Of a stretch of DNA of 32,357 bases, positions 522 through 32,166 are shown one piece after another; the first letter of the stretch is position 1; each line of letters starts with the position of its first letter. The notes beneath the pieces were generated by a model. It saw nothing but the letters and a program-made list of their open reading frames with translations, did no database searches and was not told the DNA's origin. The position numbers were made by a program, and so were the translations under genes. Source of the DNA: Prasinococcaceae sp. CCMP 1430 (Eukaryota > Prasinodermophyta > Palmophyllophyceae > Prasinococcales > Prasinococcaceae); NCBI GenBank assembly GCA_013416795.1, contig RQSC01000554.1:44310-76666 (forward strand). The letters run 5' to 3'.

Positions 522-849
522 TCAGACCATCGCCGCGCCCACGAAGGCCATCCCGGTCTTGGCGGCCGCGAGCGCCGCGCGACAGTCGCCGCATGCGCCT
601 CGGGAGGCGGCCGCCTCGGCGGCCGAGGCCGCGCCGTGGAGCCACTCGAATGCGCCCGCGGCCGCGCACTCGCGGGCCATGCAGAGCAGAAGCTGCGCGA
701 GGGCGCGGGCGGGCAAAGGGCCAGACGCAGCGGGGCCGGAGGACCGAGGCACCGGAAGCGTCAGCGCCCGAGCGCGCGCGAGCCGCCGGCGCCGCGCAGA
801 GGCGCCGGCGTAAGAGGGACGTCCGCGGCAAGGGGCGCGTTCACGCACC
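522..849 (-). CDS. Possible 3' end of an unidentified minus-strand gene (two exons)
   Basis: On the minus strand a protein-like Ala-rich segment (ALARVARAVAEWESALSVGDPQ region) ends at 849 exactly at a good donor (CAG|GTGCGTGA). An acceptor (GCGCAG) ends at 693, giving a 156-nt phase-0 intron (848-693). The last exon (692-522) encodes LLLCMAREC followed by a CGDC pair and ends AFVGAAMV-stop. No ATG lies in frame upstream before the coding region of the phosphatase on the other strand, so a start and a 5' end are missing. I do not recognise the protein. Its strand and its A/T-rich 3' flank fit the alternating layout of the window. It could also be a chance open frame in GC-rich DNA. Confidence 0.25.
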
Positions 850-1044
850 TGCGGATCTCCGACGCTGAGCGCGCTCTCCCACTCGGCGACCGCGCGCGCC
901 ACCCGCGCGAGCGCGTGCAGCAGCCGCGTGGGTCTGAGACCATCCGACGCCGGCAGCGCCCCGAACGCCGGCCGGCCGCCCGCGCCCGCGCTCGACGCGG
1001 CCGAAGCAGCAGCGACTCGGGAGGCCGGTGAGAGGAGTGGGGCG

Positions 1045-1977
1045 ATGGAGGTTACGTCGGCGCGCGCCGTCGAGTACCCGGCGGCGAGGCGCGTCGTGGC
1101 CATAGGCGACGTGCACGGCGACATGGACAAGACACGGCGAGCCTTCCGACTCGGCGGGCTGATCGATGAGAACGACCGGTGGGCGGGAGGCGACACGGTC
1201 GCGGTGCAGGTCGGCGACCAGCTGGACAGGGGGCCCGACGAGATGCCGGTGCTGTACCTGCTGGAGAGGCTGCAGCGCGAGGCCGAGCGGGCGGGCGGGC
1301 GGCTGCACGTGCTCAACGGCAACCACGAGACGATGAACGCGGCGGGGGACACGCGATACGCCCACCGGGGCTCGCACGTCGACTTCGCGCACTGGCGCGA
1401 GTGGATGCGACTGGGCAACCGCCTGGTGTCCAAGTGCGGCGCGGCCGCCATCGCCACGAGCGTCACCAGCGACGACCCTCGCTCGGAGGCGCTCGCGGCC
1501 GGCGGCGACGTCGCGCGGCGATTCTTCGCGCGGCAACCGACGGTGGTGCGCATCGGCGAGACCGTCTTCGCGCACGGCGGCGTGCTGCCCAGCCACGTCG
1601 AGCACGGGCTCGGCAAGCTCAACGCGGAGGTCGGGCGCTGGATGGAGGACGGCCGCAGCAGGGGCTCGCTCAAGCACGTCAAGGGGCGCGACGCGGTGGT
1701 GTGGACGCGCGCTTACTCCCATCAGGACACCGCGCGCTGCGACTGCGCCACGCTGCAGAGCGCGCTGCGCATGATAGGCGCCAGGCGCATGGTGGTCGGG
1801 CACACCATCCAGGACGGCGGCATCACGCAGGCGTGCGGCGGCGGGGTGCTGCGGGTGGACGTCGGCCTCAGCCGCGGGTGCGGGGACGGCGCGCCGCAGG
1901 TGCTCGAGATCATCAACGACACGGAGGTGCGCGTGCTGCGCGAGACCAACGCGGGGGCGCGAGCCATGGGCGCCTGA
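1045..1977 (+). CDS. Shewanella-like (SLP-type) metallophosphoesterase
   Basis: Predicted 310-residue calcineurin-like Ser/Thr or Tyr protein phosphatase. Visible metal-binding motifs, in order: GDVHGD (residues 21-26), GDQLDRG (57-63), GNHE (92-95), FAHGG in the second half, and VVGHT near the C-terminus. The order and spacing, with a long insert between GNHE and the FAHGG histidine, match the bacterial-like PPP phosphatases of plants and algae (SLP/Shelph family; Arabidopsis SLP1 is plastidic). The ATG at 1045 (context GCGATGG) is preferred because the upstream in-frame extension starts only with GTG and is low complexity. No clear transit peptide is present from this start, so localisation is open. 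The gene is intronless as read. It runs tail-to-tail into the RavA gene, 149 nt away. Confidence 0.88.
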   Translation: MEVTSARAVEYPAARRVVAIGDVHGDMDKTRRAFRLGGLIDENDRWAGGDTVAVQVGDQLDRGPDEMPVLYLLERLQREAERAGGRLHVLNGNHETMNAAGDTRYAHRGSHVDFAHWREWMRLGNRLVSKCGAAAIATSVTSDDPRSEALAAGGDVARRFFARQPTVVRIGETVFAHGGVLPSHVEHGLGKLNAEVGRWMEDGRSRGSLKHVKGRDAVVWTRAYSHQDTARCDCATLQSALRMIGARRMVVGHTIQDGGITQACGGGVLRVDVGLSRGCGDGAPQVLEIINDTEVRVLRETNAGARAMGA

Positions 1978-2038
1978 GCGTTCGTGCCTCCGTGCGTGTA
2001 CACACAACGCGGGCGAACGCGCCCGTCCCCCACTTCCC

Positions 2039-2126: not shown

Positions 2127-3152
2127 CTAGGCGGACGTGCCCCGAATGAAGCTGTGCCACAGGTCCGGCAGCAGCAAGGCCAGCACGTGCGGCTCCCCGC
2201 TGCGCTCCATGGCGACCTCGAGCGTGAGCACGTCGCGGTACATCGCGCGCTGCGCGGAGCGCCCCTTGGTGAAGACCGGCGCGAGCGCCTGCGCGGCGTC
2301 CTCGGCCTCCTCGGCGCTCATCCACGGCGAGTCGGCCATCGCGGCCATGCTCGGCCGCCCCACCGAGCCGCCGAGCGCGCGCTCGATCTTTTCGAGCTCC
2401 AAGCCCACCAGCTCGCGCAGCGACGCCAGCTCGTCGCGCAGCGCCGCCAGCTCGGACTGCTGCGCGGTGGCCGCCTCGCCGCCCTCGCCGGCGTCGGCGC
2501 CCTCCAGCGCGCCGCTGTTCACGCGGCAGGCGCGCGCGAAGAGGCCCTGGAGCAGGTACGACGTCTGGTCCATGCTCTGGTCGCCCGCCAGCCGCTCGAG
2601 GATGTAACGCTGCACCTTGGTCGCGTCCTCCGGCCTCTGCCACATCACGTGCTGCAGCAGCAGGCAGTCGTACATCGACACCTGCGAGCGCCCCGCCGTG
2701 TAGGCGGCCACCTTGAGCATCCCCACAGCCTTCACCAGCCGCCGGTCGCTCACGTACACGGGCGGCTCGCACTTGTCCTGCAGCCACGCGCGCAGATCGA
2801 CCAGCAGGTCCACCACCTCGTCGGGCACCTCCACGCTCTCCTCCGCGGCCTTGCGCACGCCGCGGAAGTCGTCCACGTCGAGCTCCTCGCCCGCGGCGTC
2901 GCACGCGTCCTCGGCGTCGGCGTCCGCCGCGCGCGCGGCGGGGCTGCCGCCCGCCGCCGCCCTCAGAAGCTCGGGCAGCACGCCGGTGGACACCTGGTCG
3001 ACCGCGCGGCGGAGGAGGAAGCGGTCGTACAGCGCGTCGAGCTCCTCTGACTCGGGCAGCTCGTTGGACGCGCCCACGAGGCACAGCAGCGGCACGCGCA
3101 CGCGCTCGACGCCGTTGTCGTACAGCCGCTCGTTCAGGATGGTGAGCAGCGA

Positions 3153-3185
<33 letters not shown>

Positions 3186-3556
3186 ATCCACGAAGGCCAC
3201 GTTGGCGTCGGGCAGGTAGCCGTCCGTCTTGCGCACGTACTCGTCGTTCTCGAGGCCGCGCAGCGACACGGGGCCGAAGAGCTCCTCGGGCACCGAGAAG
3301 CGCGTGAGCAGCCGCTCGAAGTACTTGGCCCCGCACGTGCCGTTGAGGCGCCGGCCCAGCTCCGACTTGGCGGTGCCCGGGGGACCCAGCAGCAGCAGGT
3401 GCTCGCCGCAGAGCGCCGCCAGCAGCAGCAGCCGCACCTCCGTGCCGCGCTCCACGAGGCCCTCCTGCATCTTCGCCAGCGACGCGTCGATGCGCGGCCG
3501 CAGCGCCGCGCCGTCGCCCTCGCCGCCAGCGCTCTCGGCTGTGTCCTCGCGAGGGG
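2127..3556 (-). CDS. ravA: RavA/MoxR-type AAA+ ATPase, 5' end interrupted
   Basis: AAA+ ATPase of the MoxR/RavA group. It has Walker A GPPGTAKS, Walker B with the FVDEIFKAN box typical of RavA, sensor-1 GASNELP and the DRFLLR arginine segment. A RavA-type helical C-terminal part follows, then an Ala/Glu-rich coiled-coil-like stretch and the end [11 protein letters not shown]. Bacterial RavA acts as a hexameric chaperone-like ATPase; its role in algae is not established. The first in-frame ATG is at 3470, but the conserved lead-in [10 protein letters not shown] lies upstream, so the true start must be further 5'. There the host-like sequence stops at about 3556 and a bacterial cysT fragment begins. 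Beyond that fragment, minus-strand ATGs with codons for Met-Ala-Ala-Met-Thr-Ala-Ala (about 3845-3866) could be the displaced start. This gene converges on the phosphatase. Confidence 0.85.
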
Positions 3557-5063: not shown

Positions 5064-6026
5064 ATGGCGTCGATGGCGGCACGCCCGCGCGCGGCAGCCG
5101 CCGCGGCCGCGGCAGCGCCGCGGCGCGCGGCGGCGCGCGCGGCGGCCGCGGGCGTGTCGATCGACGGCGTGTCGCTCGACGAGCGCGTGGCGGTCATCTC
5201 CGAGGCGCTGCCGTACCTGAAGCGCTTCCGCGGGAAGACCATCGTCATCAAGTACGGCGGCGCGGCGATGAAGGACGAGTCGCTCAAGGCCAGCGTGGTC
5301 GCCGACGTGCTGCTGCTCGCCACGGTGGGCATCAACATCGTCATGGTGCACGGCGGCGGCCCCGAGATCAACAAGTGGCTCGAGCGCGTGGGCATCGAGC
5401 CCAACTTCCTCAATGGCCTGCGCGTGACCGACGACGACACCATGGACGTCGCCGAGATGGTGCTCACCGGCCGCGTCAACAAGTCCATCGTCTCCCTCAT
5501 CAACCAGCAGGGTGGCCTGAAGGCGGTGGGCATCAGCGGGAGGGACTCCGACACGCTCAAGGCCAAAGTGCTGAACGAGGACCTGGGCAAGGTCGGGGAG
5601 ATCACGAGCGTGGACACCACCCTGATCGACGCCCTGTGCAACGCCCACCAAATCCCCGTCATCGCGACGGTCGCCACCGACGAGGAGACCAACTGCGCGC
5701 TCAACGTCAACGCCGACACCGCCGCGGGCGAGATCGCCATCGCGATGGGCGCCGAGAAGCTCATCCTGATGACCGACGTGCCGGGGATCATGCGCGACCC
5801 CTCGGACATGGGCACGCTGGTGCGGCAGGCCAACAAGAACTCGCTGCAGACGATGATCGCGGAGGGCATCCTGCAGGGCGGCATGATCCCCAAGTCGCAG
5901 TGCTGCATCAGGGCGGTGAACAACGGCGTGAGCGCCGCGCACATCATCGACGGCCGCACGGCGCACTCGCTGCTGCTCGAGGTGCTCACCGACATCGGCG
6001 GCGGCACCATGATCACCAAGGAGTGA
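5064..6026 (+). CDS. NAGK: Acetylglutamate kinase, plastid-type (NAGK)
   Basis: Phosphorylates N-acetyl-L-glutamate with ATP, the second and usually rate-controlling step of arginine synthesis. The 320-residue protein starts with an Ala/Arg-rich segment of about 30 residues (MASMAARPRAAAAAAA), a plausible plastid transit peptide. The amino-acid-kinase fold follows: KYGGAAM (ATP phosphates), MVHGGGPEIN (substrate loop), GLRVTDDDTM, GISGRDSD, NVNADTAAGEIA and KLILMTDVPGIM. The C-terminal part with GMIPK and GRTAHSLLLEVLT is the arginine-sensitive hexameric type, which in plants binds the nitrogen sensor PII. The ATG at 5064 (context CGGATGG) is the only in-frame start before the conserved domain. 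The gene is intronless and converges on UTP25, whose stop is 140 nt away. Confidence 0.95.
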   Translation: MASMAARPRAAAAAAAAAPRRAAARAAAAGVSIDGVSLDERVAVISEALPYLKRFRGKTIVIKYGGAAMKDESLKASVVADVLLLATVGINIVMVHGGGPEINKWLERVGIEPNFLNGLRVTDDDTMDVAEMVLTGRVNKSIVSLINQQGGLKAVGISGRDSDTLKAKVLNEDLGKVGEITSVDTTLIDALCNAHQIPVIATVATDEETNCALNVNADTAAGEIAIAMGAEKLILMTDVPGIMRDPSDMGTLVRQANKNSLQTMIAEGILQGGMIPKSQCCIRAVNNGVSAAHIIDGRTAHSLLLEVLTDIGGGTMITKE

Positions 6027-6166: not shown

Positions 6167-8821
6167 CTAGGTGGCAATGACGGACGCGCGCGAGTCGCTG
6201 TTGAGCATGGTTTTGCCGCGCGCGTCGCCGACGATGCGCTTGAGCGCCAAGGCGTCGAAGCGCGTGTACAGCGCGTGCGACTGCGGCGCGGTCGCCCCCT
6301 GCGTGAATCTGAGCACCTCCTCGTACGTGCGCGGTGCCGAAGGCAGGCCGTAGAACACCACGGCGCTCGCGCCGCGTATTTGCTGTCTGCGATAGAAGTG
6401 CGCGCGCTCGGTGTACACGAGCACGCCCGCCTTGCCCGTTGCGAACGCCGCCTTGGAACGCGCCGTCTCCGAGTCGCTCGAGTACTCCGACACGAACACG
6501 ACGGCGCATTGGTCCACGTCCGCGATCGCCTTGGCATCCGGCGACGCGAAGAACGCGCGCAGGCGCGTGAAGTCGGCGTAGGTGGAGCAGAGCACGAGCG
6601 TGCCGTCGCCGCCCGCGCCGCTTCGCGGCGCGCTGGCGACGGCTGGCCACGTCGACTTGTCGAAACGGTCGAAGAGCGCATCCGCGGCGGTGGACGCCGA
6701 CGAGGCTGCCACTCGCTCAAACTGTTGCCGGCAGCCGAGCGGCGCGCGCCGCGCGGCGCACGCGTGGCGCGACGTGGGCGCGTGCAGCCGCACGCGCCCC
6801 GCGGCGCTCGCACAGCCGCGCTCGATGACCGCGCGCATCGCGGGCGTTTCCCACTCCGCCAGGACGATCGTCTGCCGCAGGTGGCGCCCGAGGCCGCTCA
6901 GATACGCGTGGCGCGCGCGCGTGAGGTCCGCGTCGCGCTGCGAGCTGGGCATCTCGCTGAGGCTGTCCATCACCGTGCTCACGTGTGCCCAGTTCTGCAG
7001 GCTCAGCATGTGCGCGTGGTCGACCACCGCGATCTCGATGGAGCTCAAATAGTCGCACGTGCCGGGGGCGTCCACGTGGGTCAGGTCGACGTCGTCCTTG
7101 TTGGTGCGGTCGAACTTGCTGCCCTCCTTCTTGCTCTTGCCGCCCTTGCCCGCCTGCTTGCCCGCCTGCTTGCCATCCTTGCCCTGGGCTCGCGTGGGAG
7201 AGGCGCGCGCGACACACACGCGCGCGCACAACGCGCCAAGACCGTCAGCGCCCTGCACGGCGCGAACCAACGGCGCGAAACATGCCGGCGCGCTCCGCGC
7301 TCACTCCGACGGGGCTCACCTTTGGGGGCACGGACCCTCGCTCGATGCGCACGACCAGGCCGAGGGGGCTCGCCACGATGATGTCCGCGCCGTACAGCCC
7401 CGCGAAGAGCCGCACGCTCTTGCGCGTGAACTTGATTCCCACCACGAAGTTGTCGTCGTTGTTGCCGCTGAAGAGCGCTCTGAAGTCGTCTGGCTTGGCA
7501 CGCCGGCGCGCGCGCGCCTTGCGCCGCTCCTTGCGCAGCGCCGCCCGCGCGCGCCGCTCGGCCGCACCGGCGGCCGCGTTTCCGGTGATGCTGTTCCTCG
7601 TGCCATCACCCGCCGCGCGGGCGCCTCCTTCGCCCGCGCCCTCGCCCTCGCTGCCGCTGCCGCTCTCGTCGTCGGTGTCGGCGTCGCTGTCGGTCTCCTC
7701 GCCGGGGCCGAACCCGTCGTCGAGCCTGTCCTTGCCGACGACCTCGACAGTCTGGCTCGCGGGACACATCTCCAGCAGGCGGCGGATGGCACGCCACGCG
7801 GCGTTCCTGTTGGGCAAGAGCAGGAGCACCTTGGGGCGCGTGAAGCCCTGGTCGCGCTGCGGCTCGAAGGCCGCATCGCCGCGGCGCTGCGCGTCGGCCT
7901 CTTTCTCCGTGTTTTTTGCGACGGTGTCGCGCGTCTTCAAGACGTGGTTGATGCAGTGGAGCAGATAGGCGTCGCCCACCGCGCCAGGCGCGAGGCGCAC
8001 CGGCGGGCGACGCGGCGTTACGATCGCGTCGCGGTAGTCGTGGAATGCGTCGTACGAGAGCTGCGCCAGTGGATCGCTCAGTAGCACGTCCGCGCCGGCC
8101 GCGCCAGGGTCGAGCTCGTTGAGGCGCGCGAGGAGACGCGCCTTGACGGCATATGCGGCGCGCGGCCGGCCCGCGCATGGCGCAGGCTCGACGTCGCTCG
8201 CAGCCACCGCGCCCTCTGCCAGCTCCGGCGCCGCGCACTTGTGCACGAGCGGCGGTCGGCCGCTCGCGAGCATTGCAGTGACGTCCGCGACGTCGTCTCG
8301 GTTGAGGTGGACGCGAAACGGGTCCACGGAGGGAACGGCGGACGTCGCGGCGACTCCTTCGCCCTTCCCTTCGTCCCCGCTGTCCGTCTCGTCCGCCTCG
8401 GCCGCGAGCGCCGCTGCGTCCTCGCGAGCCCTCGCCTCGGCCTCGGCAGCGAGCTCCTCGCGCTGCTTGAGCGACAGCTTCTTCCGCTTCGGCTCGCCGC
8501 GCCCGACGCCCGTGCCAGCACCCGCCGGCCCGCCTCGCGGTGCAGCGAGAGCCCCGGCCGTCCTAGGCTTTCGCTTGTTGCCGCCCTCGCTCCTGTCCCC
8601 CCCCACCGCCGCGAGCAGCGCGGCGTACGCATCGGCGCGCGCTCCGCGGCCACCGCCGCTGCCGCCGCGCGGGGCGCTGTCGCCCCAGCCCGGCTTGCCG
8701 CGCAGGCAGATGCCGTACACGCCGTTCTTGGGGTCGTGGATCTTGGCGGCCACGGCGCGCCCGCCGGCGCGCCCGCGGCGAGCTCAGCGAGCGTCGGCGT
8801 CGCGCGCCGGCGCTTTCCCAT
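6167..8821 (-). CDS. UTP25: UTP25 (digestive organ expansion factor), rRNA processing
   Basis: Homologue of UTP25/DEF, a helicase-like but ATPase-deficient component of the small-subunit processome that handles 18S pre-rRNA in the nucleolus. Exon 1 is 8821-7320 and exon 2 is 7183-6167, with a 136-nt phase-0 intron (AAG|GTGAGC ... GCCCAG). Landmarks in order: LLHCINHVLKTRDTVAKN, QGFTRPKVLLLLPNRN, an acidic Asp/Glu/Ser stretch, DDFRALFSGNNDDNFVVGIKF, a DIIVASPLGL segment, DYLSSIEIAVVDHAHM, LRQTIVL, DRFDKSTWP and the last YEEVLRF block. The start MGKRRRATPTLAELAAG at 8821 (context ACCATGG) is convincing but is one base out of frame with KIHDPKNGVYG about 70 nt later. The downstream frame has no ATG of its own, so one base is probably missing in the assembly. 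Confidence 0.92.
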
Positions 8822-9529: not shown

Positions 9530-11379
9530 ATGGAGGGCGGCGCCCCGCCGCCGGTGGGCGGGGGCCAGGCGTGGGGGCAAGCACAGGCGCAGGGCGCCGA
9601 CGGGGGCCAGCCGCGGCAGCAGGGCGACGCGGGGCAGGCGGTGTTTCAGCACGCGCCGGCCGAGCACGGCAGCAGCGCAGATGCCTTCGTGACGCAGCTC
9701 AAACAGCTCCAGCAGCCGCCGCTGCAGCGGCAGCCGCAGCAGCAGGTGTCACCTGCGGTCCACGACACAGCTGTGACGGGGCCGGCGCGGCTGGCCCAGG
9801 CGCCAATGGAGGAAGGGGCGGGGCAAGCCGGCGTAGGCACAGTCGCTCGGGCGCGACATCACAGGCGTGCGATCAGCCTCGATGCCGCCGGCATCGCCGC
9901 GGCGATGGGGCGGCAGTCGCAGCCGCAGCCAACCGTGCGCGACCTTGTGCTCCAGAGGCAGGAGCTCGAGCCAATGCCCCGGCAGGACGGCGGGGCCGCG
10001 CAGATACAGGCGAACATTCAGGCGGCCATACAGCGGAGCCTCAAGTTGGCGACGGCGCAGCCGCAGCCATTCTCTGCTCCAGCGCACGCGTTCCAGCGGG
10101 GCGCTGCCTCTGGTGTAGCCCTCGGTGGAGGGAGTGCCTGGGCTGACCCGGGCGCGCCGAGCGCAGCGGGGCACATGCCTCTGCGGCCTCAGCACGGCCA
10201 GGATGCGCAACAGCAAGCCGTCGGCGGCGGCGATGTCGGACCCGGCCCGTCCAGCGATGCGAGCGCCGCCGTCAACGCCGGGATTCAGGCGCTCATGTTC
10301 GCGGACGGTGTGAAGGAGGTCAAGAAATTGGTTCAGAGCGGGAGCATCGACAATCTCATGGACTCGGTCACGGAGATCTCCGTGCCCGCGACACACATGG
10401 CCGCTGCGCAGGAGCTCGGCCTTCCCCCGGACGAATCGTGCGCGATGAGCATCGTGCCTGAAGACTCGACAGTGTCGATGCAGGCGCAGCAGGGGGCGGC
10501 TGCGACGGCCGGCGAGGATGAGGCGCACACGGCCCTGCGTGCGAATGGCTGCGCCGGCGCCAGCGCGAGCGGCAAGAATGCGCGCAAGCAAGACTTTGCC
10601 GAGACGGCGCGCGCGCACCTTCCCAGGCACAAGCGCTCCAAGTCTCTCGACGCGAGCCAGCTCGGGTTGTCCGCACTGGCCAACGCGACCGCGCAAGCCA
10701 CTGCGCGCATCGCCGCGCCAGGCATGAATACGAGCGCTTCCGCCAGCGGTCTCGCGGCCATCGCCGACGCGGACACTGCGCATGCAAGAGCAGACAGCGC
10801 GGCCGGCGCGGGAGGCGGCGGCGGCGCGCTCGGCGAGGGTGCGGCGACGGAGGCAGGCACGAGCGGCCAAGCTGCCAGCGGAGCAGCCGGTGCAAGTGGT
10901 GACGCCGACGCTGCGCTGGATCCGAAGACGGCAAAGCGCATCCTGGCCAACAGGCAGGCCGCCGCGCGTTCCAAGGAGCGCAAGACGCGCTATGTCGCAG
11001 AGCTGGAGAAGCGAATGACGCATGCAGAGGCCAGCAGGGACAAGGTGGGGCGATGCGCGCGCCTGCGCCTGGGGCTGTCTGTGTGTGTGTGCGCGCGCGC
11101 GCGCGTCGGGCGCGGACCAGCCGCCTGGCACCACCGCGCTGACAATGGCATGCGCGCGCGGCCCCTGCGTAGAACATGACGGACCTTCGCGAGCTGAAGC
11201 AGGTGTCGGCATCCCTGGAAGACGAGAAAGCCAAGCTCGTCGCGGCCATACTCGACTGCGAGAACGCGATCGCGGCAAAGACTGGCGCCCAGCACCTCCT
11301 CGCGGCCGAGTCTGAGGCTTTGAAACAGCGCCTCGGGCTGCACCAGCTGTCGTCGCAAGTGCGCCCATCGCCGCAATGA
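9530..11379 (+). CDS. bZIP transcription factor, plant group I (VIP1/RSG-like)
   Basis: 573-residue DNA-binding protein. Exon 1 is 9530-11044 and exon 2 is 11173-11379. The 128-nt phase-0 intron (AAG|GTGGGG ... CGTAG) falls inside the leucine zipper and carries a TG/GC microsatellite. The first 460 residues are Gln/Ala/Gly-rich and disordered. The basic region KRILANRQAAARSKERK (N-x7-R type) continues as YVAELEKRM, as in VIP1/RSG/PosF21 factors of plants; exon 2 adds several zipper heptads. Two motifs of the form H-x-R-x-x-S-L-D-A (around residues 110 and 370) resemble the phosphorylation/14-3-3 sites by which such factors are held in the cytosol; that use is inferred. The ATG at 9530 is the first true ATG. 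Its targets are unknown. It converges on KRI1. Confidence 0.88.
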
Positions 11380-11464: not shown

Positions 11465-11490
11465 GTAAATAATATACATACGTAGATTTT
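11465..11490. terminator. A/T-rich island between bZIP and KRI1
   Basis: TAAATAATATACATACGTAG followed by ATTTTAA spans the 109-nt tail-to-tail gap and reaches the KRI1 stop. It is a likely polyadenylation zone for both genes. Confidence 0.45.
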
Positions 11491-14624: not shown

Positions 14625-15071
14625 ATGCGTGCCGGTCGAGAGCACGCGATGAGGAAAAATTGGTCTGCTGTCGACGGCAGGTTGCGAGGGCGGCGTGGCC
14701 ACGGCCGCCGCGCGCACAGAGTGCTGTTGCTGCTCGGTAGCTGTTTAGTAGCGGCGCTCGCGGTGCGAGCCCAGCCGAGCGCAGCGCCCAGCGAAGTCGC
14801 CACAGCGGCGGCTTACGACCCCGACGAGCAGCGCGACCGCGAGCTGCGAAAAGATGCGATCGAGAGCGGCAGCCTGAGCGTGAAGCTTGTGCCCGAGCGA
14901 GTCGATGGAGATGTTTCAGTGGCAGGCGGTGCACCCGTCGAAGAGCCAACGGACAGCATGCCGACCGACGTGCCGACGATCATCGTCACACGCGCCCCAC
15001 AGACGCCACCGCCAGAGCCAGAGCCTGAGCCCGAGCCTGAGCCGGAGCCGGAGCCCGAGCCGGAGCCCGAG

Positions 15072-15126
<55 letters not shown>

Positions 15127-18020: not shown

Positions 18021-19024
18021 CGCGCGCCGCCGGTCGCGCAGGCGCCGGCTGATCCCGCCCCCGGAGAGCAGCGCGCCGCCCGCGCCGCCGCCCCGGCCGT
18101 AGCGCAGCGGCGCACCCACCCCGTCCCTTGCCGACGATTCAATGCTCTCAATCGGATCGATGTCGATCGATCGCGCCGCGTATACCACACTCGAATTCCT
18201 CCATTCGGGTTTGCATTCGCGCGCCCTGGGCGCACGCCGGGGGTTCGGACGGATGGATGGATCTGGATCTGATCTGTGGCGCACATTCGTCGGGGCAGCG
18301 GGGAAGAGCCCGCTCGCTCGCCGCGCGGCCCCTCGGGCGCCGCGGCGGGCAGGTCGAAAGCGCATGCGCGCAGGCTAGGCATGGGCATGGGCGGTGAGGA
18401 ACCCTACCTAGGTACCTGAAACACAACTTTTTGATCCAATTGGGGACGTGGTGGTGGAGCGGGAATAAAACCTAAACTCTCGCAACGTGCGCGCGGGGCC
18501 ACCGAGATTCCGTCCGTGGATGTTCGTCTAGGATGGCCGAGTGCTCTCATCGAATCGTGCATGGAATTTGCGAGGTGGAGGTGGAACTTCGCGGCGGTGT
18601 CCCTCGCCTGGCGGATGTTCGCCCAGGATTGGACGTTTTTCGCCGGCCGCGCTGCTCCCGGCCAGCCGCTCGGTCGGTTGTTGGCGCCGCTCGTTCGGAA
18701 CGACTGCGGTTGTTCGCGAGCGACGGCGCAGTGCGCGGGGCGCCGGGCGGGGGCCGAGGGCGCTCGCGCACAGCGGGGGGGCGCCACACCGCGCAACGCG
18801 GCGCGGCCCGAGCGGCCTCTCTCTCTCTTTCTCTTCCTCTCCTCCCCCCCAACGCACCCTTTCCCCTCGTCGCCCAACCAGGAGGGACCAGCGCCCGCCC
18901 TCCCCCCGGTCGTCGAGGTGAGGGCGACGGCGCGGCGGCGGGCCTTCGGCCCGGCCGCCGCCGGCATGCACACGGCATGCACGCGCGCGGCGGCGGGGCG
19001 GGCGGCGCGGCGGCGGGGCAGAAC
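18021..19024. promoter_or_regulatory. Divergent intergenic region, ArfGAP / PAPS transporter
   Basis: No gene is supported. Lower-GC blocks lie at 18125-18280 (rich in GATC and GGAT, e.g. GATCGATGTCGATCGATCG at 18156-18174) and 18405-18480 (contains AATAAAACC). A CT-rich tract at 18812-18870 includes ACGCACCCTTT, also found at about 26089 in another divergent region. It is a probable bidirectional promoter. Confidence 0.45.
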
Positions 19025-20438: not shown

Positions 20439-20745
20439 TCACGGCCGCACGTGCTGTGGGTGCATGTCGTGCGCATGCGCTCGCCTATCTGCCCTCTCGC
20501 CCCCCGCCTCAAGGTCAGGCTCCCTCCTGTGGTCGAGCTCTTTGTCAACAGCGTGCCACGCGCGCGCGGGCCTCGCCAGCTGCGCTCCGCTCGCACCCCC
20601 GCCAAGCGCGTACGCTTCCCGCGACGTGCGCGGCCCATAGAGCCTCGCAACGTAGACCATAGCGCCGACGAAGACGAGCACGGTCACCGTCACACAGGCG
20701 GCAATGGCGGTGGTGCGCTTGGTGCGCTCGCGAGAAAGGGGGGAC
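20439..20745 (-). CDS. Possible small single-pass membrane protein (3' exon)
   Basis: A minus-strand frame contains RTKRTTAIAACVTVTVLVFVGAMVYVARLYG, a textbook transmembrane helix with basic flank. An Ala/Arg-rich then charged tail follows, ending at 20439. A pyrimidine-rich acceptor-like run (GTGTCCCCCCTTTCTCGCGAG) sits just before it, so the segment may be the last exon of a spliced gene. No ATG occurs in frame nearby, and the first exon was not found. It lies where the strict strand alternation predicts a minus-strand gene, and an A/T-rich island follows its stop. I do not recognise the family; it could still be a chance frame. Confidence 0.35.
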
Positions 20746-21338: not shown

Positions 21339-22216
21339 ATGGCTGCGGCTGCCGCCGCTGTGCGCGGGTGCGCGAGGGACACCCCAGGCCGCCTCTCGAT
21401 CAACCGCGAGACGCTCGAGACGACCGGTGAGACTAGGACGACGGCGCCCGCAGCCGCGATGGCAGCGCCGGCGGCGAGGACGAGGGCAACGGCTTGGGCC
21501 TGGGCGCTGGCGCGGGGTTGGGGGCCGCGGTTGGCCTGATCCTCGTTTTCGGGGTGACGGTGGGAGGCTCCATCGCGTACAAGGACCAGCTCACCGCCGC
21601 GCTGGACGCCTTCACGGCCTTGCTGGCGTCGCAGGGGTTGGCGCTGGGCTTGCTCGAGTACGCGGCGGTGTACATCGCGCTGGAGTTGCTGGCCGTGCCC
21701 GCCATCCCGCTCACCATGAGCGCGGGCGCCCTCTTCGGCACGCCGCTGGGCCTGGCGGTTGCGAGCTTCTCCTCGACCACCGCGGCGACCCTCTCCTTCT
21801 TGTTTGCGCGCACCATCGGGCGCGAGCGTGTGCTCAAGATGATGGAGGGCAACAGGAAGCTGCAGGCGGTAGACGAGGCCGTCGGCCGCGATGGATTTCG
21901 TGTGGTGGCTCTGCTCAGGCTGAGCCCGCTGCTGCCCTTTGCGCTGAGCAACTACGTGTACGGCGTGAGCAGCGTGGGCCTGCCCGCGTACGTGGCGGCC
22001 TCATGGCTGGGCATGCTGCCGGGGACGCTCTGGTTCGTCGGCGCCGGCTCGCTCGGCCGCTCGGTGTTGGCGGAGGGCGCGTCGGCGGGTGCGGGCGCAG
22101 GGGCTGCGGCTCTGGCGGCGAGCTTTGCGCTCAGCGTGCTCAGCGCGGGCTACGTGGGCAAGCTCGTCTCGGATGCCGTCAAGTCGGTCGACGATGAGGA
22201 GGCAACACTTTCGTAG
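21339..22216 (+). CDS. VTT-domain (TVP38/TMEM64, DedA-like) membrane protein, frame break
   Basis: Polytopic membrane protein with a VTT/SNARE-associated domain, related to TVP38/TMEM64 and bacterial DedA proteins, which include lipid scramblases. Domain landmarks: AVPAIPLTMSAGALFGTPLG, SSTTAATLSFLFAR, then FRVVALLRLSPLLPFALSNYVYG and a G-x-x-W-x-G segment, followed by a last hydrophobic helix. A plausible organelle-targeting N-terminus (MAAAAAAVRGCARDTPGRLS) begins at the ATG 21339. It is in another frame than the domain, whose frame is open only from 21437 and has no early ATG. One missing base between 21437 and 21536 would join them; this is likely an assembly error in GC-rich sequence, because the only donor-like site (CCG|GTGAGA, 21425) does not give a usable intron. 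Plastid homologues exist in plants. Confidence 0.82.
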
Positions 22217-22581: not shown

Positions 22582-25500
22582 TTATGGTGTCGCGCTGTAG
22601 ACGTTGAACCAATACTCCGCGTCTACGTCGGGCATAGAGAAAAACGCAAAGCCCGAGCTCTCAAGGTCTTTGCGCGCGGTGCCGACGAGCGTGTCGTAGA
22701 ACTCTTCGACGACGACGACTTTGCCCGCCGGATTGAGTCGAGAGTGCAGCGTACGCACCTGCTCCTGGCGCTTGGAGGCGTCCTGCGATCAGAGCACACA
22801 AACGGCGTGCGATTGCACGTGAGTATGATGACGGCGCGCGCGTGCGGGCAAGCGCGCCGGCCGGCCGGCCGGCCGGCCCGCCCGCCAGCGGACCGACCGC
22901 TCGGCACGCGCGCGCGCGCTGGCGCGTGCCGCGCACGCACCTCGTCGCCAAAAATCTCCGTGTACGCGTTGCAGCTCACAACGATGAGGTCCACTGGCAC
23001 TGGGAGCGCAGTCACATCGCTCGCACTGTCCGTCTTGACCACGCCGATGAGGCGCTTGAGCTCGCGCGCTCCAACGCGCGACTCGACGAATTCGGCCCAC
23101 ATGCGGGTCTCGAGCGCGCAGTAGCAGAACGCCTCCATGCTCTGGCCCGCGAGTGCCTCCGCGAGGTTGCATGTGAGCGCACCAGTTTTGTCACCGAGCA
23201 CCGCGACGGTCGGCTTCGGCGGGAGCAGCGTTCGCATGTAGCGCGCGGCCTTGACGCAATCGAACCTGTTGGCGAGGGCGTCGCGTGTGGTGGCCTCCGA
23301 TTGGAACTCGCCCAGGGCGGTATACTCTTCGTCCGCGTCCCGCTGCAGCGACGCGCCGCCGGTCGCCGCCGCCGCGCGCGCCCGGTTGAGCGCTTTGAAG
23401 TCCTCGAGGAACTTTGCTAGCTGCTCCTCCTCAACGCCACCCGTGAGGTACTTTGCCCCTGACTCCTCGGCAAGCACAAGCCAGAGGACGCCCTCGACGG
23501 CCTCCTGGCACTCGCCTGTGCGCGCGTACCACAGATCAATGAGCGTCTCGAGAAGGCATGGGTGTGCGCTGAACACGTCCGCCAGCTTGGCAGCATCATG
23601 GCGCAGCGCGTGCTCCACCGCGCGCGAGATGCACAGCAGCAGCTTGTGCGGCGTTGCATGGTTCAGCATTGCGACCATCGCATCGATGCCGCCGTGCGCA
23701 CCCGACTGCGACATCTCCTGCTGGAAGGCCGCGGTGGTCGAGCACGCCATGAGCGCCTCGGCCGCGGCTTCGCGCGTGCCCATTGAACAGGCGCCCTCGG
23801 GCGCGGTGACAAGCTCGAGCAGCGCGCCGGACGCGCCCAGCTCGGCGACGACCGGTGACACCTCGGGCGCGCGCGCGCACGCGCGCGCCAGCACCAGCGC
23901 AGCAGCCGCCTCCACGGGGGCGGACGAGTCGCGCAGGAGCGGCACGACCTGCAGCCAGCCGCTCGGCGAGGCGTGCAACAGCTCGACGAATTCTTGGCGC
24001 TTGCAAAGCGCGGCAAGGGCCTCGAGGGCGCCCTGCACAGCGCGGCGAGTGCCATCCGCCAGGCGTTCCACGGCGCGGAAGCTTCGTGCGGGCAAGGATG
24101 ATGGCACGATGCGTCAGCGCGGGTGCGAATGAGACCATTGGCGACATTCGCTGGCCCCGCCGCGCGCGCGCGCGCGTGCGCACCTCATGGCGATCCCCTT
24201 CCCGAGCGCCACATTTCGCGTCTCCGGCGCCTTTCGGCACTCGAAGTCGAGAAGCTTCAGCAGCGCGTCACACGTCGACTGCGTGCCCATCCTCTCGCAG
24301 AGCGTCGAGTCGCCACCCGCCGCCCCAGCCGCGAGCATGGCGGCGCACAGGCGTGCTTTGGGGTTGTCCGCCGCGGCGCCGCGGGCGACTGCCGCTGCGA
24401 GGGCGGCGCCGCAGCCGCGCGCGGCCTTGCGTGCGGGCGCGTGTTCCTCCATGAGCGGTGCCAGCACCGCAGCAGCCTTGTCTCGCAGCGACGCGGGGCC
24501 TTTTGCCATCATCTCCGAAAGGGCAGTCATGGTGGCAGGCGTCGCGAGTCCCGATGTGGCCGCACGGACCTTGCGCTCGAGGAGCATCTCGAGCAGCTCG
24601 AGGCCGCTATCGATGACCGCCACACGGCGGTCGCCCACCGTGCCGACAATGCGTCCGACAAGCGCCGTTTCCTTGGTAATGGCATCGAGCGCCTCATCGC
24701 ACGCGCTGGCGGCCGCTGCAAGCGTCGCGAGCACGCCCAGGTTGTCCTCGCCGTACACGGCGGCGAGCGCACGCACGCCGCCGAGGGCGGCGAAGTGCTT
24801 CGAGTTGCACGCCGCACCGCCGAGCAGCCTTCGTAGCTTCGTGAGGTCGAAGCGGATGGCCTTGGTGGTGGCGAGCCCGTCCTCGGCAGTGCGCGCACCC
24901 GAGCCTGCGGCGGTGGCAGCCGCCGCCGTCCCATGCGCGACGAGTCGCGCGACGCACTCCTCCGTCTCGAGCAGCTGGGCGCCACGCGACCCAGTCCCCA
25001 GCGCCCCCGAGGCCTTGGCGATGCGGGCATCAGCTACCTCGCTGCTGAGCGCCTGTGCAGCGACTGCGCGCTCCTTGGCATACGCGATGCTCTCCCGAAG
25101 CCGCAGTAGCTCGCCGTTGGTGGGCTCGAGCTCGAGCGCGCGCTGGCAGTCGGCGAGGGCCTCGTCCAAGCGGCCGAGTTGCTGGAGAGCCGATGCGCGG
25201 CGCATGCGCGCCTTCACGTGGGAAGCGTCGAGGCGCAGGGCCTTGCTGGCGTCGCTTGCCGCGCCCGCGGCGTCGTGCACCTTCAATCGCGCCATCGCAC
25301 GGTTCGCCAGCAGGGCCGCGCTCGGGCCATAGCGCAGGCCCTTCCAGTACTCCTGGCACGCGCCTGCGTAGTCGCCTCTGTTGAAGAGCTCGTTCCCCTC
25401 ATCGCGCGCGCGCTGCGCGCTGGTGGCGGCCGTGCGCGCGGCAGCCTCGGCGAGCTGTTCCTCGCGCGGCACCTCCTCGAGTCGCTCCTCGACGATGTAC

Positions 25501-25850
25501 CCGTCGTCGCTCTCATCGCCGTCGGAGTCGCCGGGGTCGAAGTTGTCCCACGAAGAGTAGTTGGTCTCGTAGCGCGCCGCGCCGGCCCCGGCGATGCTGG
25601 TTGCGCGCGCGGCGCCAGTCCCTCTCGGGCCGCCGTTCTCGTTTCGTTCCGTGCTATCCTGGCGCCGCACCTTGCGCGTGGTGACGCGCACGCGCCCTGA
25701 GTCGATGTCCGCCTGCGTCGCCATGAGTTCCGCGATGCGCGCACGCACCTGGTCCTCGTCGCGGAGGTCGACGTCGCCGAGCATCCGGATCACCTCGGGC
25801 GGCAGGTCGTTGAGAGGCCCTGCCATGCCCGACTGTACTGGTAGCAACAT
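22582..25850 (-). CDS. TPR-armadillo protein with C-terminal Rossmann-like domain
   Basis: Three exons, 25850-24184, 24081-22941 and 22782-22582, give 1002 residues. Introns are 102 nt (phase 2, ATGAG|GTGCGC ... CACGAAG) and 158 nt (phase 0, GAG|GTGCGT ... CGCAG). N-terminal region with PPEVIRML and an acidic WDNFDPGDSDGDESDDG stretch; three TPR units (about 145-255: GNELFNRGDYAGACQEYWKG, ANRAMARLKV, RRASALQQLGRLDEALADC). A long armadillo-like alpha-solenoid follows to about 790. TPR plus armadillo is the plan of TTC12, a cytoplasmic dynein-arm assembly factor. The end is different: TVAVLGDKTGALTCNLAEAL, PVPVDLIVVSCNAYTEIFGDE and GKVVVVEEFYDTL have the strand/loop pattern of a degenerate class-I methyltransferase fold. 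The start may be MLLPVQ (25850) or MAGPLN (25826). Confidence 0.75.
22855..22882. repeat. GGCC-rich palindromic repeat in intron
   Basis: Five to six CCGG/GGCC units inside the second intron of the TPR-armadillo gene. The run is self-complementary and may be troublesome for sequencing; no function is suggested. Confidence 0.7.
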
Positions 25851-26685: not shown

Positions 26686-27527
26686 ATGAGCACCGCTGGC
26701 GCGCCAGCCGAGGCGTCCGCCGCGGTGCCAGCCGCACGGACCGCGACATTCTTCTTCGACTGCGACGATTGCCTGTACCAAAACAACTGGCGCACCGCCA
26801 AGCTGCTCACCCAGCGCATCGATGACTTTTGCTACGAGCGCATGCAGCTCGAACCAGGCCGTGCCTACGAGCTCTACAAGACGTACGGAACTTGCTTGCG
26901 CGGGCTGCTCGAGGAGCGCATCATCGAGGGCGACGCCGCAGTCGAAGAGTTCCTTGCGTTTTGCCACGACGTCGACCTTTCGGACATCACAGCCGACGAC
27001 GAGCTGCGCAGCATCATTCAGAGCGTCGCGCCCTCGGTACACAAGTACGTCTTCACTGCGAGCATCCGCGAGCACGCCCAGCGATGCCTGAAGCGCCTGG
27101 GCATCGAGCACCTCTTCATCGACATCATAGACTGCCGTTCGACCGAGCTCCATACGAAACACAGGTGCGAGACGCGGTGCGCTGCGGGCGAGCGCACGCG
27201 TTGCGGATTGCCACGGATCGCGCGGACTGCGTCTCGTCGCCGGCTGACGCGAGGCCATGCGCGCATGCCCGCGCCTCCAGCGAGGAGGCGTACCGCCTCG
27301 CGATGGCGCGTGCGGGCGTGTCGGACCCCTCGAGCTGCTACTTCGTGGACGACTCGGTGAGCAACATGAAGGCGGCCAAAGCGATGGGCTGGAACACGTG
27401 CCTCGTGGGCAGGATCCAGCGCGACACAGGCGCGCCGCTGGTGTGCGAGCACGCCGATGTACAGGTGGGCTCGCTGCACGAGCTGCGCGAGCTCAAAGAA
27501 TGGGCGCACCTGTTCTCCGACAGCTAG
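26686..27527 (+). CDS. HAD-family pyrimidine 5'-nucleotidase (SDT1/PHM8-like)
   Basis: Haloacid-dehalogenase hydrolase of the SDT1/PHM8 group, which removes phosphate from UMP/CMP or related nucleotides in yeast and plants. Exons 26686-27164 and 27281-27527 give 241 residues; the 116-nt intron is phase 2 (CACAG|GTGCGA ... CCTCCAG). Motif I is FFFDCDDCLY with the nucleophile and acid aspartates. YKTYGTCLRGLL belongs to the cap region. YVFTASIREHAQRCLKRLGIE carries motif II. The Lys of motif III falls at the splice junction (HTKHSEEAYRLAM). SCYFVDDSVSNMKAAKAMGW is motif IV. In-frame ATGs at 26527 and 26539 would add 50 residues of Arg/Pro-rich sequence; 26686 is preferred. The 3' end converges on the CK1-like gene. 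Confidence 0.9.
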
Positions 27528-27635: not shown

Positions 27636-29109
27636 TCACACGCGCACGATGCTCCCATCCTCGCGCCATGACACGCCCTGCGTCTCCCAATCCCATGGTA
27701 CATCTGTAAGTCGGCGTCCCGCAGCAGCGCGCGCGCGCGCGCGTGCGCGTGCGTGAGTGCGCGTGCGTGAGTGCGCGGCGTAGGGCACGGTGCAAGCAGA
27801 GGAGCTCGCGTCCGGAGCGACGCGCCTAGGAAGTCGGCGCGCGCGCGCGCGCGCGCGCGCGAGCATGCAGAGCCTACCTTGGTCTCCTCCTGCCTCCTTC
27901 AGCAGCACGAGCACTGCATCGTAGCGCACAGCCCGCCCCTCGGCGCGCGCGTCCTGTGCTTCGGCGGCCACACCCGCGAGGGTGGAAAACACCGCGCGCT
28001 CCGCCTCTTCGATCCTGACGTTGCCCTCTGCGTCGAGCCAATCGACGAAGCACGCGGCGTCGCGCGCACAGCGGCGCTTGTGCGCGGCACGCGAGAGGGC
28101 GTCCCCGACGTCCGCCCCGCACGCCCACGGCAGCTGCCCGCCACTGAGAAGCCACGCCATCGCCCACGCGAGCATCTCCACATCGTCAGCGGCCTCAGCG
28201 CTGCCGCCCTCATCGACCGCCGCCGCCACGAAGGCGTCCGCGCCGCGACTGTCGCGCTCGTCTGCACGAAGCTCACCGCACGCGCTCGGACCATCCTTCA
28301 CGCGCACCGCCAGGCCCATGTCGAGGAGGAAGAGTGTGTTGCGCTCGTCACAGGTACCCATGAGGAGATTGGTCGGCGACACGTCGCGATGCGCGTAGCC
28401 AGCCGCGTGGAGGTCGCGCAGGCGCTCGACCGCCTGCGCGGCGAGGGCGAGGGCGGTCGGCGCCGACAATCCGCCGCCGCCCGCGGTCTCCCAGCTGAGG
28501 CGCTCAAGCGAAGGACCGCAGAGCGTCATCACCGCACAGAGGTGGCCGGCTCCGCCCTTGCCGCCGGCGGGCCCGAAGTACATGACGTCTGGAAAGCCGC
28601 GCGCGTGCGCGAGAGCGCGAAGCACACTCACTTCGCGCTGGAGGCGGCGCTCGCCGTCGGCGCCGTCCGCGCGCACGACCTTGACGGCCGCGAGCCTCCC
28701 GGTATCGCTGCCGCGGGCGAGCAGCACCTCCCCTTCCGCACCCTCACCGAGGACGATCCGGGGCGCGCGGAGCTCTGCGAGCGCCCTCCGCGCGAGCGCC
28801 AGCCGGTCGCGGACGCGTAGCTTGTCGCGCTTGAGCGCTCGCGCGGGGGCGCTGTCGGAGCGCGCGCCGCCGCCGGCGCCACGGGCCATCGCATCGACCT
28901 CGTCGTCGAGCGCGGCGTGGCGCTCCTCGAGCGCGTCGATCAGCGACACCAGGCTCTCCTCCTCGGGCGACACCCTGCGACGCTCCGCGTGGCGACCAAC
29001 CACGGCAGCAACCGGCGCGGCCGCCACGCCATGCCCGCCTCCGCGCGCGGGAAGCACCACCCACGCCTCGCTGCCCCCGCTGCTGCCGCCGCCGGCCGCG
29101 TCGGCGCCC
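27636..29109 (-). CDS. Divergent CK1-like protein kinase
   Basis: Protein kinase most like casein kinase 1: GEGAEGEV glycine loop, AAVKVV (VAIK lysine), GFPDVMYFGP, CGPSLERL (CK1 hallmark GPSLE-L) and a HRD loop. Two key positions deviate. HRDVSPTNLLMG has Ser for the usual Lys, and LLDMGLA has DMG for DFG. Activity is therefore uncertain, although the catalytic Asp, Asn and metal Asp are kept. Last intron 27877-27704 (174 nt, phase 1, CAAG|GTAGGC ... TTACAG), stop-free and in frame; the last exon encodes DVPWDWETQGVSWREDGSIVRV. The 5' end is unresolved: no ATG precedes the kinase domain in frame. An acceptor at 29110 (CTGTTTCAG) opens the exon used here, and a donor upstream connects in frame to a DUF89-like exon. 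Confidence 0.75.
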
Positions 29110-29499: not shown

Positions 29500-30519
29500 A
29501 TGCGGGGCTCGCGCGCGACGGTGATGTGCGTGTGGGACGCGTCGACCATAGAGGCGGAGCAGGTGCTCAAGGGACATAGCGGTTTGGTGACTTCGGTGTG
29601 CTGGAGCCCGGACGGCTCGCGCCTGGCGTCGTCGGCGAGCTACGACAAGACGGTGCGCGTGTGGGACGCGTCCACCGGCAAGGCGGTGCACGTGCTCGAG
29701 GGACACAGCTATTGGGTGTTCTCAGTGTGCTGGAGCCCGGACGGCTCGCGCCTGGCGTCGGCGAGCTACGACAAGACGGTGCGCGTGTGGGACGCGTCGA
29801 CCGGCAAGGCAATGCAAGTGCTCAAGGGACATAGCGGTTTGGTGAACTCAGTGTGCTGGAGCGCGGACGGCTCGCGCCTGGCGTCGGCGAGCAGGGACAC
29901 GACAGTGCGCGTGTGGGACGCGTCGACCGGCGAGGCGGTGCGCGTGCTCAAGGGACATAGCAGTTGGGTGAACTCAGTGTGCTGGAGCGCGGACGGCGCG
30001 CGCCTGGCGTCGGCGAGCTACGACAAGACGGTGCGCGTGTGGGACGCGTCCACCGGCAAGGCGGTGCACGTGCTCAAGGGACATAGCTATTGTGTGACTT
30101 CGGTGTGCTGGAGCCCGGACGGCTCACGCCTAGCGTCGGCGAGCCAGGACGGGACGGTGCGCGTGTGGGACGCGTCGACCGGCAAGGCGGTGTACGTGCT
30201 CAAGGGACACAGCGAATGCGTGGTCTCCGTGTGCTGGAGCCCGGACGGCTCGCGCCTGGCGTCGGCGAGCGAGGACGGGACGGTGCGCGTGTGGGACGCG
30301 TTGACCGGCGAGGCGGTGCTCGTGCTCGAGGGACACAGTGAGTACGTGTTCTCAGTGTGCTGGAGCCCGGACGGCTCGCGCCTGGCGGCGGGGAGCACCG
30401 ACTACACGGTGCGCGTGTGGAAGTTTGCCTTGGGACTGCCTGGCATTTACATGCGCTTGCGCTCGCGCGAGGTCAGCAGTGTGCGCGCGCGCACGTGTGT
30501 GCACGCCTGCACGGTGTGA
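29500..30519 (+). CDS. WD40 protein of seven near-identical repeats
   Basis: 339 residues forming one predicted seven-bladed beta-propeller. Each unit is 42 residues (126 bp), starting at 29572, 29701, 29827, 29953, 30079, 30205 and 30331, of the form GHS-xx-V-x-SVCWSPDGSRLASAS-x-D-x-TVRVWDASTGKAV-x-VLK. The seven are almost identical apart from a few fixed positions. A partial unit (VMCVWDAST) precedes and would close the ring with the last WK strand. The first unit has one extra Ser codon. The C-terminal tail after FALGLPGIYM is basic and not repeated. There is no NACHT or kinase domain in the same frame. Such uniform WD40 arrays occur in NLR-like and other recognition proteins of fungi, bacteria and algae. 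It is divergent from the kinase and ends 45 nt from the PCS stop. Confidence 0.9.
   Translation: MRGSRATVMCVWDASTIEAEQVLKGHSGLVTSVCWSPDGSRLASSASYDKTVRVWDASTGKAVHVLEGHSYWVFSVCWSPDGSRLASASYDKTVRVWDASTGKAMQVLKGHSGLVNSVCWSADGSRLASASRDTTVRVWDASTGEAVRVLKGHSSWVNSVCWSADGARLASASYDKTVRVWDASTGKAVHVLKGHSYCVTSVCWSPDGSRLASASQDGTVRVWDASTGKAVYVLKGHSECVVSVCWSPDGSRLASASEDGTVRVWDALTGEAVLVLEGHSEYVFSVCWSPDGSRLAAGSTDYTVRVWKFALGLPGIYMRLRSREVSSVRARTCVHACTV
29572..30425 (+). repeat. 126-bp tandem repeat array (seven units)
   Basis: Coding minisatellite underlying the WD40 array. Long stretches, such as the WSPDGSRLAS and TVRVWDASTG segments, are identical at nucleotide level between units, including silent positions, which indicates recent amplification or gene conversion. 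Confidence 0.95.
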
Positions 30520-30575
30520 TAACAATAGCTTCGAGACGCACATGCACGAACCATAAGAATGCGTTTATAAAATTG
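30512..30575. terminator. A/T-rich overlap of WD40 and PCS 3' ends
   Basis: GTGTGATAACAATAGC after the WD40 stop, and TTTATAAAATTG over the PCS stop codon. With only 45 nt between the stops, the two 3' UTRs must overlap if either is longer than that. Confidence 0.45.
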
Positions 30576-32166
30576 ATTTGCTCGCGAGCTGCCCGTGCGC
30601 TCCCCGCAGCTCGTCCTCCGCGCGGTAGACCTCCTCGAGCTGTCTGGCGAGGTGCCGTACAACGGCCTCAACGCGCGCGTCTCGCCGCGCGTCGCCCAGC
30701 CCTGCCTCCACCGCATCGAGGCGCAGCGCGCCACTGTCGCCTTGGCCAGCCACCGTCCGCGCCACGCGACACGCGGCCAACAGCAGCGCGACGGCGCGCT
30801 CGCTGAGCTTGCCGTCGACGCCACGCGCGCGCGCGCGGAGGACAGGCGTGCCGGGCATGCCCGCGATGGCCGAGCGCGTCGAGCACGAGGCGAAGCCGCC
30901 GCCGATTGGCCGCGACGCGTGGGCGACACCTGCCATTGAATCGCAGCCGCAGTCTGGCTCGCCTGCCGGCGCGCCCGCCTCCTCGCCGCCAACGCTGCCG
31001 GCGGCGCCATCGCCGTCGCCCGCCTCGGCGCCAGTCGCATTGCCATCGGTGACGAGGCCGAGCTCGGCGATTGCGCCGCACTTTGCGAGCGCCCAATCGG
31101 CCCAGTCGCCCCCTTGGCCCTCCGGTCGGCCGAGCTCGTCCACTATCTGCAAGGCGAGCGCGCGCGACGCGCACGGGTCGGCGCCTTCAGCGAGTGGCCG
31201 CAGGCTGAGTGTGAAGGGTGCGGCGGCCGCGCTATCAGCGGCCGCCTGGTCGGCGCGCACGAGCATGTAGCCGCGCTCGCGCCCTGTGGCGCTATCCTCC
31301 CAGCGCATGGCCTCAAAAAGCTGCTCGGCGGGCACGAAGTGCATCGGGTACTTGAAGCGCGCCGTCTCGAGGATGAGCACGCCGTTGGTGTACTCGTCGT
31401 ACGCGCCCAGCACGGCAAAGTGGCCGTCCCCGGTCTGGCCGAGCGCGCGCCGCGAGTAGGACGCGATGAGCAGCTCGTCCGAGTCCTCCGAGCAGGTGCG
31501 CCGCACGTCGTCCAGGAACGTGCCGAGCGTCACGCCCGCGTCCGACGGCCGCTTGACGGTGACGCTGGCGCCCGTGCAGCGCGCGAGGCACGTGAGCTCG
31601 CCGAGCGTCACTCCCTCCTTTTCCACCACCTCGAGGGGCTTGCAGCAGACGAGCTGGCGCTCGTCGTACCACCGCCACGGTCCCTTCCACGCACGGCCGG
31701 GGTCCACGCGCAGCGTGTTGAGCGCGGTGGCGAGCGACGCGAGTCCACAGAATGCCGGCTCGTTTTGCGTCTGGTGCGCCTCGAGCGCGCGGAAGAAGGC
31801 GCCCGCGTACCCGGCAGCGTCGGCGCGGCGGATCGCCTCGCGGCCGGGGGCCGACGTGAGCGCCCACGCGGGCGGCGGCAGCTCGCGGCGGAAGAGCGTC
31901 TGTGGCGGTTGCCGTGGCGCACATGTCGCGCTGTGCGTACCATCCGCTGCCCGCGAGCTTCGTTGGCGCCTCAAACACTGGAGTGCATGCGTNCGCGTGC
32001 CCGCCTGCGGCCGTCCGGCCGCCCCGCCCCCCCGCGCGCCTGCGCCGTCCCGGCCGCCATCAAAAAGCACTTCTCTCGCGAAAAGGGCGGGTGCGTCGCC
32101 GCCGCCTCCCCCTTTTCGCACGCGCGCCCGCGCCGCCAATTGGCGCCGAAAAGAGGCCCAGAGCAT
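30565..32166 (-). CDS. PCS: Phytochelatin synthase
   Basis: Cys protease-fold transpeptidase that builds phytochelatins from glutathione and detoxifies Cd and other metals. Core landmarks: LFRRELPPPAW, NEPAFCGLASLATALNTL (nucleophile Cys codon 31749-31747), DPGRAWKGPWRWYDE, LVCCKPLEVV, GDGHFAVLGAYD (catalytic His codon 31422-31420) and LILETARFKYPMHF. In plant PCS the third triad residue is Asp (Asp180 in Arabidopsis PCS1); here the aligned residue is Glu (codon 31368-31366). The C-terminal half is variable and contains CGC, as is usual. The start is uncertain. The first in-frame ATG is at 32166 and the frame crosses an ambiguous base (31993). An acceptor-like CCGCCACAG just before TLFRREL (about 31906) suggests that a spliced 5' exon is possible. 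Without intron it gives 533 residues. Confidence 0.9.
   Translation of the reverse strand: MLWASFRRQLAARARVRKGGGGGDAPALFAREVLFDGGRDGAGARGGGAAGRPQAGTXTHALQCLRRQRSSRAADGTHSATCAPRQPPQTLFRRELPPPAWALTSAPGREAIRRADAAGYAGAFFRALEAHQTQNEPAFCGLASLATALNTLRVDPGRAWKGPWRWYDERQLVCCKPLEVVEKEGVTLGELTCLARCTGASVTVKRPSDAGVTLGTFLDDVRRTCSEDSDELLIASYSRRALGQTGDGHFAVLGAYDEYTNGVLILETARFKYPMHFVPAEQLFEAMRWEDSATGRERGYMLVRADQAAADSAAAAPFTLSLRPLAEGADPCASRALALQIVDELGRPEGQGGDWADWALAKCGAIAELGLVTDGNATGAEAGDGDGAAGSVGGEEAGAPAGEPDCGCDSMAGVAHASRPIGGGFASCSTRSAIAGMPGTPVLRARARGVDGKLSERAVALLLAACRVARTVAGQGDSGALRLDAVEAGLGDARRDARVEAVVRHLARQLEEVYRAEDELRGAHGQLASKSIL

Follow-up and report, generated by a model that had tools for sequence, protein, structure and literature searches.

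Non-random gene orientation is a phenomenon of an already known kind. In dinoflagellates (Symbiodinium), genes are arranged in unidirectional blocks (PMC5177918, PMC8110479), and 0.6-2.3 strand changes were counted per 10-gene window (PMC5177918). In the apicomplexan Theileria (T. parva, T. annulata, T. orientalis, and T. equi), whose genomes are compact, opposite-strand pairs make up ~46-53% of neighbours (PMC4761415; percentages computed from its table), and the median gaps of T. parva are 154 nt for tail-to-tail, 493 nt for head-to-head, and 309 nt for tandem genes (PMC4761415). In the chromerids Chromera and Vitrella, close genes are head-to-head more often than expected by chance, according to the available text of the genome report (PMC4501334). 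Auxenochlorella is a compact, GC-rich green alga, and the available part of its description reports overlapping isoforms of neighbouring genes and some bidirectional promoters (PMC12636532).

Here we describe gene order in Prasinococcaceae sp. CCMP 1430, both in a window of 32,357 nt (the whole stretch of DNA that was analysed, at positions 44310-76666 and thus at the end of contig C105) and in a sample of the assembly outside it. As in Theileria, tail-to-tail gaps are the shortest class (154 nt there, 168 nt here), and head-to-head gaps are about 0.4-0.5 kb (493 nt and 443 nt). However, opposite-strand pairs account for ~73-80% here, compared with ~46-53% in Theileria. Moreover, tandem gaps in Theileria are intermediate and near the additive expectation (309 nt), whereas those found here (484-504 nt) are as long as the head-to-head gaps. 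The chromerids share the head-to-head enrichment in a photosynthetic protist, but there it concerns close pairs only and is given without numbers, and the available text describes no chain-like alternation. Gene strand in dinoflagellates is non-random as it is here, but with the opposite sign, since the rate here corresponds to ~7 strand changes per 10-gene window. Auxenochlorella shares the streamlined genome of a green alga, and alternating neighbour strands were not found in the available part of its description. In the literature searched, with partial coverage, there was no matching report of alternating gene strand in algae, nor, with the same incomplete coverage, a genome in which three-quarters of neighbours are on opposite strands.

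Sampling and gene calling

The assembly comprises 24.5 Mb in 145 contigs. About 220 kb were drawn from it as stretches, and a stretch of C1 that was mostly N was left out. The sample outside the window consisted of ~160 kb of readable sequence at five places (C105, C52, C73, C82, and C75) in this one assembly, which contains runs of N. The GC content of the sampled readable sequence was ~64-70%.

Genes were called with a home-made HMM that combined a three-periodic Markov model, splice-site matrices, and start and stop codons, with the window and stretches of further contigs as its training data. Since this gene finder is able to fuse same-strand neighbours, its bias was gauged by a flip-null, in which the sequence was cut in the middle of the gaps, the blocks were randomly flipped, and genes were called anew. 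In addition, adjacent genes were tallied by hand where both had a Pfam match with an E value of at most 0.001. Gap lengths were measured over the entire sample, with a maximum intron length of 400 nt.

For the chlorophyll a/b-binding family, 22 matches were counted in the assembly. Two of these were searched, and their nearest solved structures are LHC proteins of the green lineage, which identifies the organism as a green alga. One light-harvesting protein (L022 157-669, C68:264357-264869) had LHCI-2 of entry 9vfj as its best PDB match, with 257 bits compared with 158 bits for the best other entry. LHCI-2 of 9vfj is a 620-residue chain, and two stretches of it match this sequence.

Genes of the window

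The preliminary description of the window had claimed fifteen well-supported genes. The self-trained HMM gene finder returned the same 15 genes, on strands that fit the alternation (Table 1). A Pfam domain was found on the called strand in 14 of the 15, and the bZIP and HAD matches are the two that fall under Pfam's own cut-off. The gene at 14625-16265 had no real domain match in Pfam, only a composition-driven repeat match. Judging from their sequences, the amino-acid kinase would be acetylglutamate-kinase-like, and the TPR/armadillo protein would be UNC45-like. The KRI1-like gene contains, at 11560-11650, a 9-nt unit (CTTGTCGCG) in tandem copies, which encode a short basic peptide repeat.

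Table 1. Genes and candidate genes of the window, with the support for each.
Feature	Position	Strand	Support or remark
Calcineurin-like metallophosphoesterase gene	1045..1977	+	Pfam PF00149 3e-9
MoxR-type AAA ATPase gene	2127..3545	-	Pfam PF20030 3e-63; 5' end abuts bacterial-like fragment
Amino-acid kinase gene	5064..6026	+	Pfam PF00696 2e-43
UTP25-like ribosome biogenesis gene, 2 main exons	6167..8741	-	Pfam PF22916 5e-47
bZIP transcription factor gene, 2 exons	9530..11379	+	bZIP 2e-4, below Pfam cut-off
KRI1-like ribosome biogenesis gene	11489..13372	-	Pfam PF05178 and PF12936, both ~5e-18
Pro/Glu/Thr-repeat protein gene, start uncertain	~14625-16265	+	coding log-odds 108, this frame only
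ArfGAP gene	16542..18020	-	Pfam PF01412 7e-33
UAA-family nucleotide-sugar transporter gene, 2 exons	18977..20314	+	Pfam PF08449 9e-23
Weak candidate gene, one apparent membrane helix (sequence reading)	20439..20745	-	coding log-odds 22.4 at 20496-20729
VTT/DedA-domain (TVP38-like) membrane protein gene	21339..22216	+	Pfam PF09335 6e-23
TPR/armadillo gene, 3 exons	22582..25826	-	TPR 7e-10
HAD-family hydrolase gene, 2 exons	26686..27527	+	PF00702 1e-4, below Pfam cut-off
Protein kinase gene	27636..29109	-	Pfam PF00069 1e-12
WD40 repeat gene	29500..30519	+	Pfam WD40 2e-95
Phytochelatin synthase gene	30565..31899	-	Pfam PF05023 8e-67
Weak candidate gene, poorly supported	522..849	-	whole-span log-odds ~-1.8

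A stretch of ~300 bp with lower GC (3551-3871), which adjoins the MoxR gene at its 5' end, codes for a partial sulfate ABC permease (CysT) of proteobacterial type. It shows 81% protein identity to rhizobial genomes, and no further copy was found in the assembly. This piece was rejected as a 16th gene because it is a fragment with neither start nor stop. It probably arose as an assembly chimera or by a recent insertion.

Strictness of the alternation

When the weak candidates were left out, 13 of the 14 neighbour pairs formed by the 15 solid genes switched strand. The sole same-strand pair consists of the UAA transporter gene, which ends at 20314, and the VTT-domain gene, which starts at 21339. 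Both are on the plus strand and are separated by a gap of 1,024 nt. Among the solid genes alone, the - + alternation reported earlier held at every junction except this one.

The minus-strand ORF at 20439-20745, which lies in this gap, had the highest coding log-odds of the 74 gaps tested (22.4). In a 1-kb non-coding null (300 trials), which is more regular than real intergenic DNA, the 99th percentile was 9.7 and the maximum was 10.0. No relative of the ORF was found in Pfam or PDB. Its coding signal suggests that it is probably a real gene, and if it is accepted, the alternation is complete from 1045 to the end of the window. The candidate at 522-849 had its best sub-exon at 525-680, with a score of 11, and no Pfam match below E 0.09. 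One of the two weaker candidates named in the preliminary description had a strong coding signal, while the other had negative log-odds over its span (Table 1).

Strand switching outside the window

Outside the window, 82%, 78%, and 71% of neighbour pairs switched strand under three intron settings, whereas the means of the flip-null were 62%, 56%, and 47% (z 2.4, 3.8, and 3.7). Comparing strand switches elsewhere with randomised strands was a test named beforehand, and in the sample its outcome agreed with the proposed alternation. Simulations with known switch rates calibrated the true rate to ~0.73. None of 32 runs simulated at 0.5 came up to the observed value, which lay between the outcomes for 0.6 and 0.8. 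Among the Pfam-supported neighbour pairs outside the window, 28 out of 36 switched strand (two-sided P 0.001). The other eight were on the same strand (for example, VIT1/PDE and CCB1/DUF1997), and thus there is no strict rule of alternation. Long same-strand runs, as in the unidirectional gene blocks of dinoflagellates and trypanosomes, were not found in the sample. These results show that ~73-78% of adjacent gene pairs in the genome switch strand, and strand alternation is a real tendency and not a strict rule.

The chance of the arrangement in the window had been put at 2^-15. This is far too small, since the background switch rate is ~0.73-0.78 and not 0.5, and with a rate of ~0.75 such a figure is the wrong measure of surprise. 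With a background of 0.75 and an assumed number of 8,000 gene pairs, ~20 runs of at least 16 switches are expected, compared with 0.06 at a background of 0.5. The run in the window is thus typical of what this biased genome would yield as an expected extreme, and the window is not a special locus.

Gap lengths and sequence signals

The 35 convergent gaps were the shortest class, with a median of 168 nt from stop to stop, and the 30 divergent gaps had a median of 443 nt. Short tail-to-tail and long head-to-head gaps, as first described, were confirmed in the window (45-365 nt and ~0.33-1.3 kb), but in the wider sample head-to-head gaps ranged from 3 to 1,674 nt. The 16 tandem gaps had a median of 504 nt and were not intermediate between divergent and convergent gaps. 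They exceeded the additive expectation of 321 nt, which is half a divergent gap plus half a convergent gap (P 0.027). When the two tandem gaps in which a gene on the opposite strand is probably concealed were excluded, the median was 484 nt (P 0.047); with an n of 14-16, the excess is marginal.

The two strongest hidden coding signals of the 74 gaps were both in tandem gaps, and both were on the opposite strand. The second of them (20.5) is on the minus strand at C82 330384-330602 (L021 ~384-602) and is flanked by plus-strand genes for a serine acetyltransferase and an Arf-like GTPase. It is likely to be a small gene that was overlooked, and with it the alternation there would be complete again.

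The poly(A) signal of green algae is TGTAA. Convergent gaps contained it on both strands (9 copies forward and 10 reverse), with a density of 2.6 per kb compared with 0.45 per kb for divergent gaps. In tandem gaps it was confined to the sense strand (6:0). This strand asymmetry supports the strand calls independently. AATAAA was absent within 200 nt of 90 stops. In divergent gaps, there was no strong strand-symmetric promoter motif, and only a weak enrichment of ACCCTA/TAGGGT was seen. In the upstream 400 nt of the sampled genes, ACCCTA/TAGGGT was about fourfold over the Markov expectation on both strands, and it resembles the plant telo-box.

Possible causes of the alternation

We regard it as an even call that same-strand pairs are depleted throughout this compact, GC-rich green-algal nuclear genome and that the window is one local run of this bias, with read-through and the sharing of zones as the mechanism that we infer. 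Where there is little room between genes, the promoter of a same-strand neighbour would be invaded by read-through from the preceding gene. Tail-to-tail genes could share one 3'-end zone, head-to-head genes could share one open promoter zone, and rearrangements that left genes tandem and close would be selected against. The convergent gaps, which are short and have poly(A) signals on both strands, are suggestive of shared 3'-end zones. Tandem gaps longer than the additive expectation are suggestive of a read-through cost. The avoidance of read-through that had been proposed for the window is thus weakly favoured by the tandem gaps (484-504 nt compared with 321 nt, P 0.03-0.05). All gene models in the sample come from the home-made gene finder, in which some same-strand genes are merged. 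The lengths of divergent gaps vary greatly (3-1,674 nt), and therefore promoter sharing would not be uniform. Tentatively, the alternation may even be a strong preference that is actively maintained genome-wide, with a true rate of 75-85%, which would be higher if tandem gaps hide opposite-strand genes.

It is unlikely that selection acted mainly for bidirectional promoters, with one nucleosome-free zone for each pair and the tail-to-tail arrangement as a by-product. Divergent gaps were less than 1 kb in 24 of 30 cases and half of them were under ~440 nt, and distances of this size are commonly regarded as compatible with bidirectional promoters (PMC2871058). However, convergent and divergent pairs are equal in number to within one along a chromosome. 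Therefore, only the depletion of same-strand pairs is observable, and counts cannot separate promoter sharing from 3'-end sharing. The selection for bidirectional promoters suggested in the preliminary description is thus something that strand counts are unable to show. Moreover, no common function of the divergent partners in the window is evident from their Pfam domains, and the divergent gaps lack a strong strand-symmetric promoter motif.

A mutational origin, in which tandem copies were lost by recombination or rearrangement was biased without selection on transcription, has a low probability. The loss of tandem duplicates would reduce same-strand pairs, and there were no adjacent duplicates of the same family among the sampled Pfam-annotated genes. 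But random inversions push switching to 50% and not higher, so that a special bias would be needed.

It is more doubtful still that the excess arose from gene calling, by the merging of same-strand neighbours through false introns and by antisense ORFs in GC-rich DNA that were taken for opposite-strand genes. Such a bias is real, since random strands were called at 0.56-0.64 when introns were allowed, and one fusion (CCB1 with DUF1997) was found. However, the excess survived the flip-null (z 2.4-3.8) and harsher intron settings (0.71 switches observed, 0.47 in the null), the tally restricted to Pfam-supported pairs still gave 28 out of 36, and the TGTAA asymmetry backs the strand calls. Plain chance in one window of a genome with 50% switching is very improbable, since scanning many windows does select extremes, but the same bias was present in independent samples elsewhere and 50% switching predicts 0.06 runs of 16 switches per 8,000 pairs.

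Significance

The eukaryotes for which figures were compared switch strand at about half of their gene junctions or fewer, whereas the genome studied here switches at about three-quarters. A genome of this kind is a natural experiment on what determines gene orientation, be it read-through, promoter sharing, or supercoiling. In practice, when two same-strand neighbours lie far apart in such a genome, the other strand of the gap is worth searching for an overlooked small gene, such as the candidate at 20439-20745. If the alternation is a strong preference that is actively maintained across the genome, it would mirror the one-strand blocks of dinoflagellates, and transcription interference or supercoil balance would be a measurable force on gene order.
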